From the IMG/VR virus record IMGVR_UViG_3300037843_000337, positions 1-41,257 of that record: a DNA stretch of 41,257 nt. One strand, written 5' to 3'. Numbering within the stretch: the stretch's first letter is position 1; every line of letters starts with the position of its first letter. The translations under genes and the position numbers were made by a program. The notes beneath the pieces were generated by a model, which did no database searches, had not been told where the DNA came from, and was given only the letters and a program-made list of their open reading frames with translations. Origin of the DNA: a virus. This document shows, one piece after another, positions 1,843-32,863 of the stretch.

Positions 1843-2310
1843 ATGACACAATTCACCACGCAAACTCCCGGCCCCATGGTCGGACCGAATTCTCCCGACT
1901 TTGATACTGTCGTCGGGCAGAGCAGCAATCTGCCTTTCCAGTTCGAAGTTCTTACTGGCACGACTGACGTCATCACCGGTGGCGCGGGCGCCCTTGAATT
2001 ACCTCCAGGGTTGAGCGCGGCAACCGTGGTGCCGATCTGCGGCACCTCATTCATCGAGACCGCCGGCGTCGATGCCTGCACTCTCGCTACCCCCGTGGCC
2101 GGCGCGCCGTCCGCTGGAGGGAACGACGGTCTTGAAATCACCATCATCGACAACAGCGGCCACGCCCATACCGTGACCACGGCGGCCAATAAAATCACGC
2201 CGTCTCATCACCTGATCACGTTCGGGGGCACCCAGGGAAGCTTCGTCACTCTGGTGGCCCGCAACGGCTTCTGGATCCCGGTCCAGCAGGCCGGCGTCAC
2301 GATCAGTTAG
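1843..2310 (+). CDS. Putative head decoration or minor head protein
   Basis: 155 residues with a strong ribosome site (GAGGAGCTACTCCC then ATG). No signal peptide, no membrane segment. The sequence is Gly/Thr/Val-rich with predicted beta strands, ending in GSFVTLVARNGFWIPVQQAG. It follows the capsid gene and is flanked by strong hairpins on both sides, which suggests a separately tuned, abundant product. Position and composition fit a capsid-decorating protein, but I do not recognise the family, so this is inference. A trimeric spike or collar protein is another possibility. Confidence 0.6.
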   Translation: MTQFTTQTPGPMVGPNSPDFDTVVGQSSNLPFQFEVLTGTTDVITGGAGALELPPGLSAATVVPICGTSFIETAGVDACTLATPVAGAPSAGGNDGLEITIIDNSGHAHTVTTAANKITPSHHLITFGGTQGSFVTLVARNGFWIPVQQAGVTIS

Positions 2311-3608: not shown

Positions 3609-4028
3609 ATGTTCCGCAAAATCACCGCTGTCGTTTCCATGCTCACGTTCGTCGCCGTGCTGGCCTTTGCCTCGCAGACGCCGCTCACCCCGACGCAGCT
3701 CAAGCAAAACAATTATTCCGTAGTGGCCGGCGATCTCACCGTCGCCCCCGTTGCCTGCGATGCGGTCAATGGGAACTCTTTCACCGTCACCGGGCAAGAG
3801 ATCCTCGTGGTGCAGAACTCGGGCGCCAGCGCCTACACCTTCACGGTGCAGAGCGTTGCCGATCCCTTCGGACGCACCGACAGCAGTCTGACGAATTACA
3901 GCGTCGCAGCCAGCGGCATCGCAATGATCGAGATGAAGTATCTGATCGGCTGGCAACAGACGGGACAGGTCGTCTACACCAGCTGCAGCAACGCCTCGCT
4001 GAAGTTCGCGATCGTTCGGTGGCAATAG
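3609..4028 (+). CDS. Secreted form of a phage head/neck-associated protein
   Basis: 139 residues. Residues 1-22 are a classic Sec signal peptide: FRK, then hydrophobic AVVSMLTFVAVLAF, then an ASQ cleavage region. The mature part, with NGNSFTVTGQEILVVQN, DPFGRTDSSL and a C-terminal SLKFAIV strand, resembles a beta-sandwich protein I recall near siphovirus head-tail joining genes. Virion proteins assemble in the cytoplasm, so a signal peptide here is odd. Ribosome site is CGAGGAG before ATG. It is the first of six signal-peptide genes in this module. Confidence 0.75.
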   Translation: MFRKITAVVSMLTFVAVLAFASQTPLTPTQLKQNNYSVVAGDLTVAPVACDAVNGNSFTVTGQEILVVQNSGASAYTFTVQSVADPFGRTDSSLTNYSVAASGIAMIEMKYLIGWQQTGQVVYTSCSNASLKFAIVRWQ

Positions 4029-4412
4029 TTGCCCCTACGCCGGCTTAGCCAGGTGCCTCCGCCGGCCGGAGGCTACACGCCGATCGGCGCGATGACCCGG
4101 CAGATCACGTTCTACCTTTCGGGGATCCGCAGCGTGGTCGACGGCAGCACGGGACCGCCCGCGGCTTATGGGACGTCCTGGGCGGCATTTCGCGCCCTGC
4201 AGGGCCAGGAGCTCGACAAAGCGCAGCAGATTGCGCAAAAGGTCACGCACCTGGTCGTCATCCCGTACCAGCCGGGCATCGTCGAGTCGATGACCTTGCA
4301 ACTGGAGCAGCGCATGTTCCAGACCATGGGCATCGAGGATCCTGACGAAATGCACATCGAGCTGCGGCTCTACGTCATGGAGATTGGCCAGAACGCTGGC
4401 CAGCAAAGCTGA
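4029..4412 (+). CDS. Head-tail adaptor, SPP1 gp16-type
   Basis: Up to 127 residues. The pattern RQITFYLSG...SWAAFRALQGQEL..AQQIAQKVTHLVVIPYQPGI...DPDEMHIELRLYVMEI matches the head-tail joining (head-closure) family that seals the portal channel. The start is uncertain: TTG 4029 directly follows the previous stop, GTG 4053 and ATG 4092 are alternatives, and the family match begins near ATG 4092. A GGAGG at 4067-4071 and the palindrome CGCCGATCGGCG (4078-4089) precede that ATG. Confidence 0.85.
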   Translation: MPLRRLSQVPPPAGGYTPIGAMTRQITFYLSGIRSVVDGSTGPPAAYGTSWAAFRALQGQELDKAQQIAQKVTHLVVIPYQPGIVESMTLQLEQRMFQTMGIEDPDEMHIELRLYVMEIGQNAGQQS

Positions 4413-4492
4413 TGACGCTGAAAACTTTTTGCGAAGCTCACGGCCTCTGGATCTTCTGCCTGCTGGTGCTGGCGTGCGCGTTCGCCCGGTAA
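4412..4492 (+). CDS. Tiny membrane peptide, 26 residues
   Basis: ATG at 4412 overlaps the stop of the head-tail adaptor, so it could be translated by coupling. The product is MTLKTFCEAHG followed by a hydrophobic helix LWIFCLLVLACAFA and one Arg, enough for a single membrane span. It ends 6 bases before the next start. It may be real, or just an open stretch; no family known. Confidence 0.35.
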   Translation: MTLKTFCEAHGLWIFCLLVLACAFAR

Positions 4493-4498
4493 TTCACG

Positions 4499-5452
4499 AT
4501 GGCGCCGATACTTCCCGCGCTCTATGCGCAGCTCGCCGCACAAACACCGATCCAGCAACTGATCGGACCAGGCGCCTATAACGGAGCGCCGGCGAATGCG
4601 GTCAGCGCGTTCTTCTTCGGCGCCGCTTCGAAGCAGCCGCCGGCACGCTTCATCGTCATCAACGTGCTCAACGCGCCGCCGGCCGCGACCACGCTCAGCC
4701 AGACGACGGCGCTGATCGATGGCGAGTTTCAGTTCGATAGCTACGCCGAAAGCCAACTGGTCGCTCGCCAGATCTCGGAAACGATCCGCGGGCTGCTGAT
4801 TGACCTGGTCGGGACGTCTCTGCCGAACGGCGTCACCATCACGTTCACCGAGAACACGGTCGATCGTGATCTCGGATACGAGATCGGCGGAGAAAGCTAT
4901 GTCTTCCGGTCGCTCCTGCGGCTGCGCGCCTTCTACAACGAAAGCGGAGGCACGCTGCCCCCTGGCCCGAATCTGTACACGGGGTACGGCGCACCAAGCA
5001 CGCTGCACAACAATGACGATCTCTACTACAACCTCACGAACGGAAATCTCTATGAGCAGCAGAATTACTCCTGGGAGCTCGTCGGCAACATCCCGGTGGG
5101 CGGAGGCGACGAGATGACGCCGAGCTCGCTGTTCCACCTGGTTGCCGCTGCCGGCACCAACGCCAATCTGATCAAGAACGCTTCGGGCCTGGTCACCGGC
5201 TGGAAAGTTTTGAACGACACCGAGTATCCGATCTACGTGAAGCTCTTCAACCTGGCGACGGCGCCGGTTCCTGGATCGAGCACGCCACAGCAGACGATCG
5301 GCGTGCAGGCCGGCGAGAGCGCCGAAGTCTCGATCAATGGCGGCATCACGTACTCCGCTGGGATTGGCCTCGCCATCACCAAGGGGATCGCGGACCTCGA
5401 CGCGACGGCCGTCGCTGCCGGCGACTGCGTCGTCGATGTTTTCTGGCAATAG
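4499..5452 (+). CDS. Tail terminator-like protein fused to a beta domain
   Basis: 317 residues. Residues 1 to about 160 (LPALYAQLAAQTPIQQLIG, ...IDGEFQFDSYAESQLVARQISETIRGLL, ...YVFRSLLRLRAFY) follow the DUF3168/gp17-like tail-completion pattern that caps the tail tube. Residues about 204-317 are a separate beta domain that recurs at the C-terminus of the next gene (its residues 213-322): IYVKLFNLATAP against VYMRFYNTASAP, and GIADLDATAVAAGD against GIADTDTTATAAND. The fusion links a core tail part to a domain shared with a secreted protein. Confidence 0.75.
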   Translation: MAPILPALYAQLAAQTPIQQLIGPGAYNGAPANAVSAFFFGAASKQPPARFIVINVLNAPPAATTLSQTTALIDGEFQFDSYAESQLVARQISETIRGLLIDLVGTSLPNGVTITFTENTVDRDLGYEIGGESYVFRSLLRLRAFYNESGGTLPPGPNLYTGYGAPSTLHNNDDLYYNLTNGNLYEQQNYSWELVGNIPVGGGDEMTPSSLFHLVAAAGTNANLIKNASGLVTGWKVLNDTEYPIYVKLFNLATAPVPGSSTPQQTIGVQAGESAEVSINGGITYSAGIGLAITKGIADLDATAVAAGDCVVDVFWQ

Positions 5453-5487
5453 TTTTTCGACTCCAAAAGAAAAAGGAACCTTCGATT

Positions 5488-6456
5488 ATGAAACTCGTGA
5501 AGCTCTTCGCTCTGCTCTTCGTTTTCTGCTCGCTCGCGCTGGCGCAGCAGCCCGTCAACGTCACCCAGTGGGACGCCACCACGCTTGGGGCGCCCTCCGC
5601 CTACGGAACCGCGCCCGGCGCGGTCAACGTTATGGGTGTGAATGCTTACGTCACGAACAACGTCCCGGTCACCGAGTCGGGCACGTGGAACGTGCGCGTC
5701 ACCGGCAACGCCGGCGGAATCTTCGACACCACTGCGGGCGCCACCGCGGCCGCCGACTCGCTTGAAGTGGGAGCCGTCTATAACAGCTCGGCGCCCACAC
5801 CCTCTACGGGACAGCAGGAACCGCTGCAGCTCGATTCCGCAGCCAATCTGCTCGTCAACGTGAAGGCCGCGCTGCCCACTGGCAGCAACACCATCGGCAA
5901 GGTCGATCTGTTGGGCAACAGCGGCGTCGCGCTGGACGTGGCCGCGGGCGCGACCGCCGCAACGAACTCGGTTCTGACTGGCGGCGTTTACAACTCGGGC
6001 GGCGTTTCGCCCTCTACGGGCCAGCAGGAGCCCTTACAGCTCGATTCCGCGGGACGCGTGCTCGTCAATTGCACCGGCTGCTCGGCGGGTTCGACTGTGC
6101 AGCTGATTCCGGGAACGAGTGGCGGCGTGACTATGTCGCACTTGCTCGCCGCGGCCAGCACCAACGGCACCGTGCTGAAAGGCTCTTCCGGCCAGCTCTA
6201 TGGAGCGGCCATCTACAACAACGCGGCCTATCCCGTCTACATGCGGTTCTACAACACCGCGTCCGCGCCCACCGTCGGAACGACCACGATCGTCTATGAA
6301 GTTCCGGTGCAGGCCGGCACAGAGCGCGAAGTTCACTCCGATGAAGGCCTGGCATTTTCAAGCGGCATCGCGTACTCGCTCACCAAAGGCATTGCCGATA
6401 CGGATACGACTGCCACGGCAGCCAACGATGCCAGCATGGACCTGATCTACAAATGA
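5488..6456 (+). CDS. Secreted repeat protein with virion-type domains
   Basis: 322 residues. Signal peptide: MKLVKLFALLFVFCSLALAQQ. It continues with PVNVTQWD, a start seen in phage structural beta proteins. Residues about 81-127 and 150-196 are an internal repeat (AGATAA...VYNS...PSTGQQEPLQLDSA...LLVN), and residues 213-322 are the beta domain shared with the upstream tail terminator-like protein. Ribosome site AAAAGGAACC. The combination suggests an exported protein built from virion modules. Its job, possibly surface display on the host or a periplasmic role, is not known. Confidence 0.75.
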   Translation: MKLVKLFALLFVFCSLALAQQPVNVTQWDATTLGAPSAYGTAPGAVNVMGVNAYVTNNVPVTESGTWNVRVTGNAGGIFDTTAGATAAADSLEVGAVYNSSAPTPSTGQQEPLQLDSAANLLVNVKAALPTGSNTIGKVDLLGNSGVALDVAAGATAATNSVLTGGVYNSGGVSPSTGQQEPLQLDSAGRVLVNCTGCSAGSTVQLIPGTSGGVTMSHLLAAASTNGTVLKGSSGQLYGAAIYNNAAYPVYMRFYNTASAPTVGTTTIVYEVPVQAGTEREVHSDEGLAFSSGIAYSLTKGIADTDTTATAANDASMDLIYK

Positions 6457-6809
6457 ATCGATTTTCCCTCTTCGCTTTTTTCTTCGGCGCGACGCTTGCG
6501 TTGGGACAGGCTGCGCCGGCGCCGGCCCAGCCTGCGCCTCCACCGGCCGTCACGGTGAGCGATGCCGCCTATCCGTTTCCGATCGAGGAGCGCAGCAAGA
6601 TCCGCGATCTGCAATTCGAGCATGACGAGCTGGAGATCGAGAACCAGAAGATGCTGGTGAAGATCGAACAGAACCGACAGCGCCAGGCGGCGCTGATGGA
6701 TGCGGTGAAGTTCAACGCCTACCAGTTCGCGCAGGCGAAACACATCGACCTCGACGTCTACGACCTCGACGCGAAAGAGATCAAGTTCGTGCGGAAGAAG
6801 GGCAAATGA
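6453..6809 (+). CDS. Secreted coiled-coil protein
   Basis: 118 residues. ATG overlaps the previous stop (ATGA), implying translational coupling. A signal peptide (MNRFSLFAFFFGATLALGQ) leads to a Pro/Ala linker (APAPAQPAPPPA). A charged coiled coil follows, from about residue 48 to 90 (KIRDLQFEHDELEIEN, KIEQNRQRQAALMDAV). The tail is basic. It could oligomerise in the periplasm. No family recognised. Confidence 0.7.
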   Translation: MNRFSLFAFFFGATLALGQAAPAPAQPAPPPAVTVSDAAYPFPIEERSKIRDLQFEHDELEIENQKMLVKIEQNRQRQAALMDAVKFNAYQFAQAKHIDLDVYDLDAKEIKFVRKKGK

Positions 6810-7483
6810 TCCGACGATTCGCAGTCTTGCTTCTGCTGGCTTCGGGCGTCCTCGCGTTCGCGCAGCAGCCCGTAAATCCAGGCGTCGTGCAGACCTCGCC
6901 GGCAAATGGCTCAGCCTATTCGCAAGGCGCTCAGGCGCAGCCCAACGTCGGCACCGACGGGAATCTGTGGACCAGCATCCAGCCGGCGCTGCGTCCGGCC
7001 AGCTACGCCGCCTCGAAGTCATTCGCCGGCAGCTCGACTACAGACAACGCAGCCCTTTACGGAAACTCTTCGAACACGGTTCTCGTGACGCGCGTTCTCG
7101 TCTCCTGCGTCCAGACCACTGCCGGAATTATTACGCTCAGCATGATCAAGCGCTCCTCGGCCGATACGGGCGGCACTTCAGCTTTGATGACGAGTGTCCC
7201 GGACGATTCGACATTTTCCGCCGCAGTCTCAGTGCCGATTTCCTATACCAGCACAGGGCCAACCGTAGGCACGCCAGTCGGCAACGTCGACACCTATCAA
7301 CTAGGCTGCATGGCGGCGGCTACGGCTTCTCCGAACGACATTTACATTCTCGACCGGCGTCTGAAGCCGATCGTGCTTCGCGGCACCGCTCAGCAGCTCG
7401 CGGTGAATTTTGGCGGGGCGATCACTGGCGGCAATCTTACGGTTACCTTTGAGTGGGAAGAAATCGCGACCATCACGCCATGA
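6806..7483 (+). CDS. Secreted beta-rich protein
   Basis: 225 residues; start overlaps the previous stop (ATGA). Signal peptide MIRRFAVLLLLASGVLAFAQ, then QPVNPGVV, echoing the QQPVNV start of the gene at 5488. The remainder is Ser/Thr/Ala-rich and predicted beta (TVLVTRVLVSC, RLKPIVLRGTAQQLAVNFGG, LTVTFEWEEI). The last segment resembles jelly-roll-like proteins I associate with phage structural regions, but I cannot name a family. Second-to-last in the ATGA-linked chain 5488-8190. Confidence 0.65.
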   Translation: MIRRFAVLLLLASGVLAFAQQPVNPGVVQTSPANGSAYSQGAQAQPNVGTDGNLWTSIQPALRPASYAASKSFAGSSTTDNAALYGNSSNTVLVTRVLVSCVQTTAGIITLSMIKRSSADTGGTSALMTSVPDDSTFSAAVSVPISYTSTGPTVGTPVGNVDTYQLGCMAAATASPNDIYILDRRLKPIVLRGTAQQLAVNFGGAITGGNLTVTFEWEEIATITP

Positions 7484-8190
7484 GAAAGCTGCTGGCGGTT
7501 TTCCTGTTTGTGCTGATCCTGATCGGCTCGCCGTACGGGTGGGCGACGGCCTCCTGGGTTGGCGGAGCCAAGAACGACGCGACCGGCAGCGTCACAACCA
7601 TCACCGTTACCTATAGTCCGACGGCGGGAAACACCCTTGTGATCTTTCTTGAGACCGCCCCCGTCTCGGGGGGATCGTGCGCCGATAACAACAGCAATGC
7701 GCTGACGGTCGGGCCGACCATTTCCGCTACCGAATACCAGAGTTCCTACTATGGCACCGCGATCACGGGTGCGACATCCTATACCTGCACCTGGACGACG
7801 AGCACTGAGGCGGGCATCGTGCTCGGAGAATACTCCGGGGTCAGCTCGGTGAACGCCAGCCTTTCCGGAAACACGAACAGCGGAAACAGCGCAACCGCCT
7901 CGGTTACGGTCACAACCCAGGACGCGAACGACTGGATCGCTTGCGGGCTGGGGGATACCTCGGACACGTTGACCGGCAGCGTGGGAACCCAGCGCGAGCA
8001 GGTGGCGGCATCCACAAAAAAAATTACGCTCGTCGATAACACTTCGAGCTCGGCCGGCAGCCTGACCTGCGCAGCGACTTTGACCTCCACCGGATGGGTG
8101 GGGATCGCGCTCGAACTGCGCACCACCTCGGCAGTTTCGGTTTCACAGTTCGACAAACGGCGGAAGCTCACACGCTTGGGCGTTCTCTAA
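7480..8190 (+). CDS. Secreted or surface beta protein with EYSGV motif
   Basis: 236 residues. Start ATG 7480 overlaps the previous stop. N-terminal hydrophobic segment MRKLLAVFLFVLILIGSPYGWATA. The body has strands GNTLVIFLETA and TSYTCTWTTSTEAGIVLGEYSGV, then alternating Ser/Thr strands and GWVGIALELRT. I recall that TWTTS...EYSGV pattern from bacterial surface and phage proteins of unknown function. The C-terminus is basic (FDKRRKLTRLG). Whether it is released or membrane-bound cannot be decided from sequence. Confidence 0.65.
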   Translation: MRKLLAVFLFVLILIGSPYGWATASWVGGAKNDATGSVTTITVTYSPTAGNTLVIFLETAPVSGGSCADNNSNALTVGPTISATEYQSSYYGTAITGATSYTCTWTTSTEAGIVLGEYSGVSSVNASLSGNTNSGNSATASVTVTTQDANDWIACGLGDTSDTLTGSVGTQREQVAASTKKITLVDNTSSSAGSLTCAATLTSTGWVGIALELRTTSAVSVSQFDKRRKLTRLGVL

Positions 8191-8208
8191 ATTTGAAGGA
8201 AAAAGACA

Positions 8209-8844
8209 ATGAAGCAATTTTTCATACTGTTCGCGGTGCTGGCCCTTTGCGGCCTAGCCTTCTCGTCGGTTGCCACTCCCGTCACGATCTCATCGGTGAC
8301 CTGCACGTCGGGCGTTTGCACGGTGACCACCGCAACCGCTCACAGCATCGCTGCCAATAATCCCGGTTTTTGCATCGTCGGCTCCACTCAAACAGCGGAC
8401 AACATCTGTGGCGCGGCGGCTTCGGTCCCGCTTTCAACGACGTACACCGTGAACTCGGCCACGATGACGGCTTGTGCTTCGAGTTGCGGAAGTTCGCAGC
8501 CCGGACCGCTTTTCATCCTCCGCACCTCGCAGGGTGGATTCGGATTGCAGACGATCTTAGGCTGCATGTGGACCTTCACGCCCACAGGCGCGGCTGTTTC
8601 AGGCGCGGTGAGCGCTTGTTCTTCGGTTCTCCCGAGCAATCTGCAGACTGAAGTGAATGCCGCGATCGCCGCGGGAACGTGGATCGAGCAGCCGATCAAT
8701 CGCGCTTTCCCTGCCAGCTACTCGGCGACGACGATTCTCAACCAATTGCTCGACCTGCAGCTCGCGGCACAGGTAGCGCTCGCTGCGGCGACGGCGCCCG
8801 GCAGCGATGCCGGCCTCGAGTGCGACGTGACTGGATGCAACTAG
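8209..8844 (+). CDS. Secreted Cys-containing hypothetical protein
   Basis: 211 residues; good ribosome site GAAGGAAAAAGACA. Signal peptide MKQFFILFAVLALCGLAFSSVA. The mature part is Thr/Ser-rich with about a dozen cysteines (TCTSGVCTV, ACASSCGS, ECDVTGCN), which suits disulphides in an oxidising compartment. A helix NQLLDLQLAAQVALAAA lies near the end. It is the last signal-peptide gene before the tail tube genes. Function unknown. Confidence 0.65.
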   Translation: MKQFFILFAVLALCGLAFSSVATPVTISSVTCTSGVCTVTTATAHSIAANNPGFCIVGSTQTADNICGAAASVPLSTTYTVNSATMTACASSCGSSQPGPLFILRTSQGGFGLQTILGCMWTFTPTGAAVSGAVSACSSVLPSNLQTEVNAAIAAGTWIEQPINRAFPASYSATTILNQLLDLQLAAQVALAAATAPGSDAGLECDVTGCN

Positions 8845-9323: not shown

Positions 9324-9758
9324 ATGACCACCACTGCATATCCCGGACGCGGATCCACGCTCGCCAACGGAGGCACGGCCGGCAGCAGCTACACCACACT
9401 GGCGCAGCTCAAGAAGTTTGCCTTTTCCGGACTGAAGGCCGAGAGCGATGACATCACCAATCTCTCGTCTCCGACGATCAACAAAGAATGGCTGAAGACG
9501 ATCGTCGACAGCGATAACGTCACATTCACCGGCGTTCTCAATCCGGCAGACCCGACCTACGAGTCGCTGCTCGCGAACCTCTACACCGCCGGGCAGGCCG
9601 CCACGAACTACTGGCAGATCACGCTCACCGATGGCTCGGTGCTGACCTTCCAGGGCTTCGTTCTCGACTTCAAACCGGCCGACGTGGAGTACAACAAGGC
9701 GCTTTCGTTCACCGGGACGCTGAAGATCACCGGCCAGGTCACCGCGGTCTGGACCTAG
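9324..9758 (+). CDS. Tail tube protein, copy 2
   Basis: 144 residues, with a strong ribosome site (CAGGAGAAAACC). MTTTAYPGRGSTL, LAQLKKFAFSGLK, DDITNLSSPT and FVLDFKPADVEYNKALSFTGTLKITG align with copy 1, so the pair arose by tandem duplication with strong divergence. One may form the bulk tube and the other a special ring, for example the last ring at the tip or neck. That division is inference. Confidence 0.87.
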   Translation: MTTTAYPGRGSTLANGGTAGSSYTTLAQLKKFAFSGLKAESDDITNLSSPTINKEWLKTIVDSDNVTFTGVLNPADPTYESLLANLYTAGQAATNYWQITLTDGSVLTFQGFVLDFKPADVEYNKALSFTGTLKITGQVTAVWT

Positions 9759-11728: not shown

Positions 11729-12292
11729 GTGGAAACCACTTTTCATCTCGAAGGCCTTCCCGAGTTCGCGCAGAAGCTCGACTCGATCGCGACGGTTGTC
11801 TCCGGCCCGATCGCCAGACACGGCCTTGAAGCCGGCGGCGAAGTGATCGCCGACCAGGCGCGCGCGAACGTTCACAGGCTTACCGGACTGCTCGCCGGCG
11901 ACGTCGTTGTCGTTGTGCGTGTGCACCAGGAAGCTGGCGAGAGCTATGCGCTGATCGGCCCGGGCTGGGATCCGGAAGCGTTTCGCCGGACGAAGCAGCG
12001 CCGCGGCCGCTGGGCAAACGAAGCGCCGGCGCCGGACCAGACAACGAATCCCGGCCTCTATGGCAAGTTCCTCGAAACCGGACACCGCGAGCCCGAGCAT
12101 GGCCTCGCACACAATCTCGAATACCAGAGGGCGCGGCGCGCGGCTCATGGCCGGATCAACACGGCCGAGTTTGGAACGCTGGCCACGCCGCCCTATCCCT
12201 GGCTCGGCCCAGCGCTCGATGCACGCGGCGAGCAGGCACTCGAAGTCTGCGCCGAAACCATGCGCGGAGATCTTGAAGGATTGAATTTGTGA
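11729..12292 (+). CDS. HK97 gp10-like tail completion/neck protein
   Basis: 187 residues from GTG 11729. FHLEGLPEFAQKLDSI, GLEAGGEVIADQARANVHRLTG, YGKFLETGHREP and PPYPWLGPALDARGEQALE follow the HK97 gp10 family, in which an N-terminal helical pair is followed by a small beta core and a P-W-L-x-P-A motif. Such genes usually lie beside the head-tail adaptor. Here it is displaced to between the tail chaperone and the tape measure, about 7 kb from the adaptor. Confidence 0.8.
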   Translation: METTFHLEGLPEFAQKLDSIATVVSGPIARHGLEAGGEVIADQARANVHRLTGLLAGDVVVVVRVHQEAGESYALIGPGWDPEAFRRTKQRRGRWANEAPAPDQTTNPGLYGKFLETGHREPEHGLAHNLEYQRARRAAHGRINTAEFGTLATPPYPWLGPALDARGEQALEVCAETMRGDLEGLNL

Positions 12293-12606
12293 TCATGCCG
12301 CCCCTATCGGACGACGTAGCGATCAAACACCTTCGCGGGAATACGGCCTTCGAAGCCTTGCGGGATCTGCTCGGCGACGACATGAAGGCCCTTACGGCCT
12401 TCGAAGCCTTGCGGGATCTGCTCGGCGACGACATGAAGGCCCTTACGGCCATGCACGAGGAACATATTTTCGTGAACAACTGCGACGTGCCACTTCCGTT
12501 CGGCAAGGAATTCGCCGCTCGGGTTCGCGGCTACTTGGTTTCACTCAATCTGGAGTGGAACCAGAAGAACCTGCAGGACGCGGTCTCGGCTTCTCTGACT
12601 GACTAA
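12289..12606 (+). CDS. Small hypothetical protein with a 17-residue tandem duplication
   Basis: 105 residues. GTG 12289 overlaps the previous stop (GTGA) and has GAAGGA at a proper distance; ATG 12295 is an alternative. TAFEALRDLLGDDMKAL occurs twice in a row, encoded by an exact 51-base duplication. Without the extra copy the protein would be 88 residues. The C-terminal part (PFGKEFAARVRGYLVSLNLEW) looks folded. No family recognised. Confidence 0.65.
   Translation: MIMPPLSDDVAIKHLRGNTAFEALRDLLGDDMKALTAFEALRDLLGDDMKALTAMHEEHIFVNNCDVPLPFGKEFAARVRGYLVSLNLEWNQKNLQDAVSASLTD
12343..12450 (+). repeat. Exact 51-base tandem duplication in coding sequence
   Basis: Bases 12343-12393 and 12394-12444 are identical, followed by six bases of a third start (ACGGCC). 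The length is a multiple of three, so the frame is kept. Identity at every base, synonymous positions included, means the duplication is recent, or an assembly artefact. Confidence 0.9.
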
Positions 12607-16523: not shown

Positions 16524-17708
16524 ATGCCGAATGCAGATTGCGACCAGCTTGTACGCGAAGCCTTTGCTCAAGACACTCGTCACGCCTGCGTTGACCAACT
16601 TGTCCGCGAAGCCTTTGTCTCGCTGCAGGGTTCGAACGCCGTCGCCGACCAGGTCGTCCGCGAGGCGTTCGCCGTCGACGCTCCGCACGCAAATGCGGAC
16701 CAGATCGTCCGCGAGGTTTGGGGCTATGACGTGCCGGCGGCCAGCTGCGACCAGATCGTCCGCGAAGCGTTCGTTGTTCTCACCCCTTTTGCCGGTCCAT
16801 CTATGCCACTTGTCTACCCTCTGACCATTCCCACCGCGCTCGGAGAATCGAAAGCCGATCTCACGAAGTTCGACGCCATCGGCGAATTCATTTCCGAATT
16901 CACCGGCAACGCCGAGCAGCAACAGTGGCAGGACCAGCACTGGGAGCTCGCGCTCGAATGGCCGGAGATGAACTGGGCGCAGTTCGCCGCCTACGACGCA
17001 TTCATCGGCGCGCTGCACGGCAAGCTGGGAAGCTTCCTCTGGGGTCCTCCTCTCGCCACCGCGCCGCGCGGATCGGGGAGTGGGGCCCCCGTGCTGGGCA
17101 CGGGCAATGCCGCCGGATCCGGCGCGTTGGTTACAACCGGGTGGGCCGCAAGCGCAAGCGGGCTGCTGCTGCCAGGCGATTTTCTGCAGGTCGGGCCTTA
17201 TCCTCTGCCCATCGTCTTCGTCCAGGTCACCAGCTCCGGCGTCCTCGAAATTCTTACGAGCGTGAACTGGTCACTAACGCTGCAGACGCTGCTGACCGGC
17301 AACAACGTCAGCTTCGCCGGCCTGACCGGAGCGACATGGCTCAACGGCGCGGTGCTGCAGGTGGGATACATCACGAACGAAGGCGTGGGCTATGGAACCC
17401 TGATCACGATGGCCACAGTGCCTCCGAACATGCCGATTCCCTACAGCGCTGGTGACGACACCGGCAACGTTACTTTCGGCGCCGCGCGACTCTACCAGTA
17501 CGTCGACTCATCTCCGCTCTCAAGCGATAGCGGCGGCAACGCTACCTTCGATATTTTCCCATGCGTGCGCGAAGCCCTGCCCGCGGGCACCCAGATTTCT
17601 CTGCTGAATCCGCAGGGAACCTTCCGCCTGGCCGACAACCGCCGCACAACTTCGGCCGATGAGCGGAAGCTACTCAAGTTGAAGCTGAAATGCCGCGAGG
17701 CCTTCTAA
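16524..17708 (+). CDS. Distal tail protein with five N-terminal DQ(I/L/V)VREAF repeats
   Basis: 394 residues. Residues 1 to about 88 hold five copies of an 18-residue unit with core DQLVREAF or DQIVREVW. From about residue 94 (MPLVYPLTIPTAL) a tail domain follows: FDAIGEFISEFTGNAEQQQW...HWELALEWPEMNWAQFAAYDAFIGALHGKLGSFLWGPP. A central insert (ATWLNGAVLQV...ITMATVPPNMP...GDDTGN) recurs in the tip protein at 19274-21937. The end, FRLADNRRTTSADERKL, suits a ring-forming distal tail protein. An internal ATG at 16803 could give a repeat-less form. Confidence 0.7.
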   Translation: MPNADCDQLVREAFAQDTRHACVDQLVREAFVSLQGSNAVADQVVREAFAVDAPHANADQIVREVWGYDVPAASCDQIVREAFVVLTPFAGPSMPLVYPLTIPTALGESKADLTKFDAIGEFISEFTGNAEQQQWQDQHWELALEWPEMNWAQFAAYDAFIGALHGKLGSFLWGPPLATAPRGSGSGAPVLGTGNAAGSGALVTTGWAASASGLLLPGDFLQVGPYPLPIVFVQVTSSGVLEILTSVNWSLTLQTLLTGNNVSFAGLTGATWLNGAVLQVGYITNEGVGYGTLITMATVPPNMPIPYSAGDDTGNVTFGAARLYQYVDSSPLSSDSGGNATFDIFPCVREALPAGTQISLLNPQGTFRLADNRRTTSADERKLLKLKLKCREAF

Positions 17709-25581: not shown

Positions 25582-25983
25582 TTACCAGGACCCGACAATC
25601 TTCCAGTGCTCGCGGAACTCCTTGTGGTCGACTGGGCGCACATACCTGATCCAGACGTCCGGCTGGCTGCTGGCCTCAGAGCAGTCCTGGCACGATTTTT
25701 TTACCGCCATCTCTGCATCGTACTCGCCGGGAGCCAGGATGTTGCATCCGCTGTGGTTTTCGTAGCACTTCAGCAGCGCATGTTCGCCGTTGATGATGGC
25801 GTTGGTCATGGTCGCCTTCACCGTCGTGTATTCGCCTTTGAAGATGAAACCGCCTTCTACATGTTTTTGGAATCCGTGACTCTGTTCGGCGATCGTAATC
25901 TTCAAAGAGGTGAGGTTCTTCTTCGCCGCAGCCAGTGGAGGGATAACAGAGAGCGTGAGAAATAGAATGAGGGTTGTTTTCAT
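25582..25983 (-). CDS. Secreted accessory protein, reverse strand
   Basis: 133 residues from ATG 25983. Signal peptide MKTTLILFLTLSVIPPLAAA. The mature part has four Cys (KCYENHSGC, SCQDC), suited to two disulphides, and strands such as GGFIFKGEYTTVKATMTNAII. It stands alone on the reverse strand next to the attP-like site, where lysogenic-conversion genes are common, and behind a promoter-like block shared with the reverse gene at 15102-15332. Probably exported by the lysogen to the periplasm or outside. Function unknown. Confidence 0.7.
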   Translation of the reverse strand: MKTTLILFLTLSVIPPLAAAKKNLTSLKITIAEQSHGFQKHVEGGFIFKGEYTTVKATMTNAIINGEHALLKCYENHSGCNILAPGEYDAEMAVKKSCQDCSEASSQPDVWIRYVRPVDHKEFREHWKIVGSW

Positions 25984-32342: not shown

Positions 32343-32863
32343 AGCCGCCGTGTGCTAAACATTTTGAATGGACGTTTTCCAGTCGAGTGCGCGAGCGGAA
32401 GTGCTCGAACTGCCCAGTGAGCACGACTGGCTATCTGACGCTCAGCAGCGGAGTGCGTAAGCCGTTGTGTTCTGCCTGTTTTCTCGTTTCTGCGAAGACT
32501 GCGGCTCTGGATGTGGGCCGCAGTTCTAAAATCACAACCGGAGTCCACCAAATGAAAAACCCTATCTATCGCCAGGGAGACGTCCTGATTCGGCGCATCA
32601 AGAGCCTGCCGACGCAAAAGGCTCAAACGCGGCTGACCGGGATCCTTGCCTATGGTGAAGTCACCGGGCATGCCCATCGCCTCGAAGACCTGGCGCGTGC
32701 CGAAGTCCTCGAAGTTGGCAAAGGATTATTCCTTCGCGTGGGCGCTGAAGGAGTCCGCATCGTCCATGAAGAGCACGCTCCAGTGAGCCTGCCGGCTGGA
32801 GATTACGAAATCGAAATTCAGCGCGAGTACACGCCGGCGGAGATCCGCAATGTCGCTGACTGA
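32339..32863 (+). CDS. Zinc-ribbon segment joined to a conserved small protein (companion of the DUF6745-like gene)
   Basis: 174 residues from ATG 32339 (ATGA overlap), or 103 from internal ATG 32552, which has its own GGAG site. The first 70 residues hold CAKH, CSNC and CSAC zinc pairs. From NPIYRQGDVLIRR on, LAYGEVTGHAHRLED, VHEEHAPVSLPAGDYEIEIQREYTPAEIRNVAD matches a widespread small family normally starting near RQGDV and usually next to DUF6745 genes, as here. A hairpin (32498-32524) before the internal ATG suggests the second part may be translated separately. The stop lies inside the next gene. Confidence 0.7.
   Translation: MKPPCAKHFEWTFSSRVRERKCSNCPVSTTGYLTLSSGVRKPLCSACFLVSAKTAALDVGRSSKITTGVHQMKNPIYRQGDVLIRRIKSLPTQKAQTRLTGILAYGEVTGHAHRLEDLARAEVLEVGKGLFLRVGAEGVRIVHEEHAPVSLPAGDYEIEIQREYTPAEIRNVAD
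32498..32524 (+). promoter_or_regulatory. Hairpin before an internal start
   Basis: ACTGCGGC (32498-32505) pairs perfectly with GCCGCAGT (32517-32524), loop of 11. It lies inside the open frame, 27 bases before ATG 32552 and its GGAG site, as if it marked a gene boundary there. Confidence 0.4.

Follow-up and report, generated by a model that had tools for sequence, protein, structure and literature searches.

Predicted signal-peptide proteins encoded within the virion module of a soil siphophage and related environmental phages

Results

Six candidate signal-peptide genes among the head and tail genes

The window analyzed here is the whole 41,257-base virus record from IMG/VR, which originates from a soil tailed phage. 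Judging from its genes, this phage is a temperate siphophage: it encodes a large terminase (36038) and a portal (38135), both tailed-phage genes, as well as an S78 protease (39931), an HK97-type capsid (199), a head-tail adaptor (2640), a head-closure protein (4029), a non-exported tail terminator (4499-5452; sub-threshold hits to PF11367 and phrog_123), a first tail-tube paralog (8854), a tape measure (12610), a distal tail protein (16524-17708), a J-like tail protein (19274), a lysozyme (21984) and an integrase (24280). Because the terminase, portal and protease genes lie at the right end of the window and the capsid gene at its left end, the record is probably circularly permuted and represents a nearly complete genome. 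The distal tail protein presents DQLVREAF-type repeats at its N-terminus, and the gene at 12289-12606 contains an internal tandem repeat (TAFEALRDLLGDDMKAL, twice).

An earlier note on this DNA had pointed to six genes with Sec-type signal peptides (SP) between the head-tail joining and tail-tube genes. Our analysis supports this description and refines the location: the first gene (3609..4028) lies between the adaptor and head-closure genes, and the other five (5488-8844) lie between the terminator gene and the first tail-tube gene. All six are encoded on the plus strand. The 3609 gene encodes a 139-aa protein with a predicted SP at 3609-3671 (cut AFA^SQT; score 5.81) and a mature part modeled as a beta-sandwich with two conserved cysteines (AF2 pLDDT 84). 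This protein matches PHROG 16194 'tail protein' (E 8e-5) and, by fold, phage proteins of 112-124 aa in BFVD, which is the length of the mature form; no match was found in the PDB fold search at E 0.001. The 5488 gene (5488..6456; 322 aa; SP 5488-5544, cut ALA^QQP; score 6.36) encodes repeats followed by a C-terminal domain that is also found in the tail terminator (5114..5449, plus strand), where it constitutes a candidate docking site. The product of the 6453 gene (6453..6809; 118 aa) has the weakest of the six signals (score 3.5; likely cut ALG^QAA, SP about 6453-6506), and its mature part consists of a Pro/Ala linker and a charged, probably helical stretch without cysteine. The 6806 gene (6806..7483; 225 aa; SP 6806-6862, cut AFA^QQP; score 5.84) encodes two invariant mature cysteines; its AF2 model (pLDDT 56) was not used. 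The last two genes are 7480 (7480..8190; 236 aa; SP about 7480-7545, cut GWA^TAS; score 6.25), with four mature cysteines, and 8209 (8209..8844; 211 aa; SP about 8209-8274; score 4.74), for which no relative was found outside the same phage. The latter encodes 11 cysteines, ten of them in the mature part, and corresponds to the protein described in the note as having about a dozen. The relatives of 5488, 6453, 6806 and 7480 retain an SP.

Four of these genes had also been described as chained by ATGA overlaps, and we indeed found three such junctions, at the starts of 6453, 6806 and 7480, which couple 5488-6453-6806-7480 and, taken by themselves, argue for a single coupled unit rather than for morons, i.e., independent accessory genes with their own promoter and terminator. 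This coupling, together with the position of the genes among assembly genes, suggests that the set is expressed with the virion genes. We found no catalytic domain and no toxin domain in the six proteins. Annotated phages yielded no match to 3609, to the C-terminal domain that is shared, to the fibre of L060 or to the domain of L113.

Signal-peptide scores and controls

Signal peptides were detected with a home-made score based on a basic n-region, a hydrophobic core and the -3/-1 rule; SignalP was not used. Eight known SPs of E. coli scored between 3.99 and 5.79 and four negatives scored at most 1.91. The cut-off of 4.7 was passed by 16 of 1915 minus-strand ORFs, i.e., a false-positive rate of 0.8%. 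Among the 122 plus-strand ORFs of the window, the five best scores were those of 5488, 7480, 6806, 3609 and 8209. The sixth gene, 6453, came close behind, with a spurious GTG ORF at 32453 (3.86) ranking above it; its relatives (35-53% identity) scored between 4.67 and 5.6. The window genes present the n-, h- and c-regions with small residues at -3 and -1, 6453 only weakly so. As a control, we scored 74 structural genes from the five siphophages whose annotated capsids are nearest, and none of them qualified as an SP gene.

We compiled a set of 82 SP proteins, and an A-x-A cut site was identified in 56 of them. A lipobox was absent from the six and a lipobox-like sequence was detected in only three of the 82, and almost none of these proteins presented a membrane span after the SP. 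Based on these two properties, we infer that the mature proteins would be soluble, stored outside the inner membrane and released at lysis with the virions. That this space is a periplasm is only assumed, since the hosts of the IMG/VR phages are unknown. A glutamine at +1 past the cut was observed in 33 of the 82 proteins; it resembles the Q-rule of Bacteroidetes and may hint at the host group.

Cysteine parity of mature and precursor proteins

Exported bacterial proteins favor even numbers of cysteines owing to disulfides (PMC7678975). We counted cysteines in the complete SP proteins of the window phage and its relatives, leaving out the 3609 family. Mature counts were even in 42 proteins and odd in 6. 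This bias was gone when the cysteines of the SP were included (20 even and 29 odd), and the conserved genes without SP presented no even bias (129 even and 189 odd). Retaining one protein per homology group yielded 19 even and 5 odd counts (p 0.003); p-values for parity are indicative only, because homologs are not independent. A second set, built from loci with a C-terminal domain shared by SP proteins of L014 and of a podovirus (L082), gave 62 even and 7 odd counts. The mature parts of the six contain, in gene order, 2, 2, 0, 2, 4 and 10 cysteines, all even. It is difficult to account for the contrast between mature and precursor forms unless the SP is removed and the cysteines left behind are paired, and we strongly infer from these counts that SP proteins are cleaved and form disulfides.

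Gain and loss of the signal peptide in the 3609 family

The 3609 family was found in 39 viral loci, including all the capsid relatives that span the region, where it lies near the adaptor, head-closure and tail-terminator genes. Nine aligned members lack the SP, and these start with M-(A/S/P) exactly at the cut site of the SP forms (AFA^SQTPLTP), such that the SP substitutes for the start methionine exactly. Most of these starts lie directly behind a Shine-Dalgarno-like sequence. An alanine, serine or proline in second place permits removal of the start methionine, and therefore the two routes should yield the same N-terminus. Neither the place of the gene nor its mature sequence changes with the presence or absence of the SP.

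We reconstructed the tree of the family from the mature columns. The SP label requires four changes on this tree, at least two of them forced by well supported branches, and a single clade of forms without SP was rejected (AU p 0.0075). These results indicate, as far as the sequences can tell, that the SP of this family was gained or lost at least twice. Among the SP forms, identity is 27% in the n- and h-regions, 94% at the AFA site and 58% in the mature part. Drift of the n- and h-regions with conservation of the AFA site points to selection on these leaders as putatively working signal peptides. We also considered the cysteine pair of the family as an independent correlate of the SP, but this candidate was rejected as it changed only once on the tree. 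At the equivalent place, the phage L062 encodes a fibre with an Mtd_N domain, without SP and without cysteine.

Content of the region in relatives

Relatives were chosen by their capsid (68-100% identity). The earlier note had proposed a search for the same block in related prophages; we found SP genes at the same places, several in each capsid relative that spans the region, with contents that vary strongly. The longest SP proteins of the region reach 1125 aa in these relatives, and searches against Pfam and PHROGs returned almost nothing for such long proteins. No relatives were recovered when genome contigs were searched with the capsid and the 3609 family, and no host could be derived from that route.

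Several SP proteins are fused or share domains. L011 encodes a 1070-aa protein whose C-terminus shares 82% identity with mature 6806; this fusion has a single SP, at its own N-terminus, and the separate 6806 gene has its own. Similarly, a 407-aa SP protein in L039 contains the 6806-type domain as its C-terminal domain. The C-terminus of the tail terminator (window 5126-5446) is 41% identical to the C-terminal domain of 5488. An SP protein and a protein without SP that both carry this domain co-occur in five relatives (L008, L036, L037, L039 and L106), and L040 has neither.

A second kind of leader was observed on two unrelated virion-type proteins, both leaderless in the window: a protein encoded next to the capsid gene (1843..2310, plus strand; weak phrog_15312 hit), which has a hydrophobic leader in many relatives, and a second tail-tube-like paralog (9324..9758, plus strand; phrog_158), which has one in several. 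These hydrophobic leaders measure 30-65 aa, often with two hydrophobic stretches and a basic residue between them. They were found in the 1843 family (L011:7831, L014:11696 and L065:3837) and in the 9324 family (L011:16869, L016:20619, L017:20664, L069:5738 and L089:7697), and were never seen in the first tube paralog (8854 family). Both proteins present a common (A)LFG|T junction exactly where the leaderless forms carry their start methionine, for which the leader substitutes. Finally, a 133-aa ORF of the window (25582-25983, minus strand) adjoins the integrase gene, with an SP score of 5.47 and four mature cysteines; it is possibly a lysogenic conversion gene.

Spread to other phage groups

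One C-terminal domain, carried by an SP protein of L014 and by another of the podovirus L082, was detected in 48 viral loci. An SP was present in 24 of the 35 loci with intact starts, and all 24 of these proteins contained an even number of mature cysteines. Several of the loci adjoin genes for capsid, portal, terminase or neck proteins that belong to other families. One phage whose capsid is of another family has about six SP genes between its capsid and neck genes (L110:1611-6729).

The trait was also identified in Tunturi_1, a cultured Acidobacteriota phage and podovirus whose host is T. psychrotolerans X5P2 (PP887698; PMC11924767). Its gp12, annotated tail spike gp14 and annotated virion structural protein gp17 are scored as SP proteins with 20, 20 and 32 mature cysteines, respectively, and gp13 presents an SP-like start (3.94) with 10 mature cysteines. 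The GenBank starts of gp12, gp14 and gp17 take in the SP, and the annotations of gp14 and gp17 are themselves predictions. The main text of the paper describing this phage (PMC11924767) contains no mention of signal peptides or of structural mass spectrometry. Tunturi_3 infects the same host strain and has no SP gene on the strand carrying its structural genes, which indicates that the host does not force the trait. The gp12, gp14 and gp17 proteins resemble the window's set by their SP, their even number of mature cysteines and their location inside the structural module. In contrast, Tunturi_1 is a podovirus, no sequence similarity was found between these three proteins and the window's set, and the three Tunturi genomes examined have almost no sequence in common with the window. 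That the window phage infects Acidobacteriota is an inference only, and its host remains unknown.

Discussion

Tailed-phage virion proteins assemble in the cytoplasm and should carry no export signal, an expectation that the six do not meet; they do meet the expectation that virion proteins be encoded in the structural module with virion-type domains. Such proteins of the window phage and of many relatives apparently mature and form their disulfides beyond the cytoplasm, the compartment in which tailed phages assemble. The view of the earlier note that the genes form an exported set expressed with the virion genes is well supported by the SP scores, the gain and loss of the SP at the exact mature N-terminus, the parity of cysteines in mature forms only and the recurrence of the trait elsewhere. 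Taken alone, Sec export of the six with cleavage by signal peptidase is very probable on the basis of the sequences. Three of the results reach further than prediction, namely the exact substitution of the start methionine in the 3609 family, the parity of mature cysteines, and the 6806 domain, which relies on the SP of the larger protein when fused and on its own when separate. The roles proposed in the note, namely a coat on the host surface, the blocking of rival phages or late-added virion parts, remain open in the absence of virion mass spectrometry. The sequence evidence leans toward the last of these, because members of the 3609 family have the same mature sequence, N-terminus and position regardless of export and because the 5488 domain is common to the non-exported terminator. 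A role in the virion is further hinted at by the co-occurrence of the two forms of this domain in relatives, by the fold matches of 3609 to short phage proteins and by the SPs of gp14 and gp17 in Tunturi_1, given their predicted annotations.

Under the model that we favor, the six proteins would be made together with the virion genes, exported by Sec and cleaved by signal peptidase, and the paired cysteines of most of them would form disulfides outside the cytoplasm. Heads and tails would be assembled in the cytoplasm, and fibre and decoration proteins would pass to the periplasm, where they would be oxidised and kept. Both pools would meet at lysis, when the exported parts would attach to completed particles, with the neck as a possible site and the domain common to 5488 and the tail terminator as the contact. 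Given export, we consider docking on the virion as an evenly balanced question: it has not been shown, as no virion proteomics is available, and we know of no lysis-stage docking of this kind in tailed phages. Moreover, the long SP proteins of relatives contain no recognisable virion-attachment domain, unlike the L062 protein with its Mtd_N domain, which counts against docking. That the six are virion appendages or decorations built in two compartments, with the last step at lysis not shown, is therefore a reading that we hold at just short of even confidence. The general form of the proposal is slightly more tentative: neck, tail or head appendages would leave the cytoplasm through Sec, become oxidised in the periplasm and join cytoplasm-built particles at lysis, the route would be switched by gain or loss of the leader, and the trait would have spread across several unrelated phage groups.

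The main rival, which we consider unlikely, is that the six are exported blockers: free virion-type binding domains would fill the periplasm, escape at lysis and cover receptors or glycans, both on neighboring cells and on envelope debris, thereby sparing the progeny and excluding rival phages. Exported proteins that are soluble and lack both a lipobox and a later membrane span would indeed leave with the virions, and the strong differences in content between close relatives are expected of ligand-specific proteins. The copy of the 5488 domain in the terminator fits this hypothesis as well, since the two domains could bind the same outside ligand. However, 3609 has the same mature sequence and gene place in phages that export it and in phages that do not, which suggests that its function is unchanged, and known phage blockers are mostly single lipoproteins or membrane proteins, whereas three to six soluble proteins are encoded here.

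It is improbable that the proteins are instead secreted enzymes or adhesins, such as depolymerases or matrix binders. In that case their target would be host polysaccharide, whether during infection, after it or in lysogenic conversion, and the operon would be all they have in common with the virion genes. Some SP proteins elsewhere (L028, L053 and gp17 of Tunturi_1) do contain beta-helix, Fn3-associated or chitobiase C-terminal domains, but the window's six lack a detected catalytic domain, the small 3609 family has a fibre-like context, and the ATGA coupling and the site among assembly genes argue for expression with the virion genes. We give still less credit to membrane-anchored assembly, in which uncleaved leaders would hold virion proteins at the inner membrane during particle formation; the second leader type of the relatives, with its frequent pair of hydrophobic stretches, would suit such a role, but the A-x-A cut sites are conserved and parity holds for the mature part only, which implies cleavage and an oxidising compartment. 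Finally, the low score of 6453 and the use of a home-made score leave little more than a nominal chance that the N-termini are not signal peptides or that the starts are misplaced, considering the low false-positive rate, the absence of hits in control siphophages, the conserved cut site, the cysteine parity and the SPs within the GenBank starts of Tunturi_1.

The pattern could reflect either a novel mode of particle construction in phages or the release of several blocking proteins. If the exported proteins are virion parts, the premise of wholly cytoplasmic assembly of tailed phages fails for a broad set of environmental phages, disulfide-bonded fibres become possible, and annotation would have to give up counting signal peptides against a virion role. 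Released blockers, in turn, would represent multi-protein exported sets built from virion-type domains. The cultured pair of Tunturi_1 and Tunturiibacter makes this question directly testable.

The earlier note knew of no described system of this form, and we likewise found no description of an exported virion-module set in tailed phages in the full-text open-access literature, a search that leaves out most subscription papers and preprints. Several known systems nevertheless share part of the pattern. The Llp protein of T5 masks the receptor of its own phage. Like the six, Llp and Ltp of TP-J34 (PMC3952083) are phage-encoded and exported and may spare progeny or exclude rivals; these are single lipoproteins, whereas the window encodes a set without lipobox inside the virion module. 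A different likeness is found among lambdoid phages. Their toxins, such as Shiga toxin, are expressed late, exported by Sec, disulfide-bonded and released by phage lysis. The genes of these toxins lie near the lysis genes, whereas the six lie between head and tail genes and no toxin domain was found in them. Fibre and decoration proteins of tailed phages present the same operon position (the L062 fibre), a matching fold (the BFVD matches of 3609) and similar repeats (the long proteins), but the L062 protein has neither signal peptide nor cysteine, and both synthesis and assembly of such proteins take place in the cytoplasm. Filamentous phages (Inoviridae) possess no tail and extrude through the envelope, and their pIII is a virion protein with a cleaved signal peptide and disulfides that joins the particle from outside the cytoplasm. 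In contrast, the window belongs to a tailed dsDNA phage that encodes a tape measure as well as terminase, portal and capsid, and that is expected to assemble inside the cytoplasm and to exit by lysis; its tailed-phage terminase, portal, capsid and tail genes exclude the six from the exported coat proteins of inoviruses. As an exported, disulfide-bonded virion protein, pIII represents the closest working analogue of the proteins proposed here.
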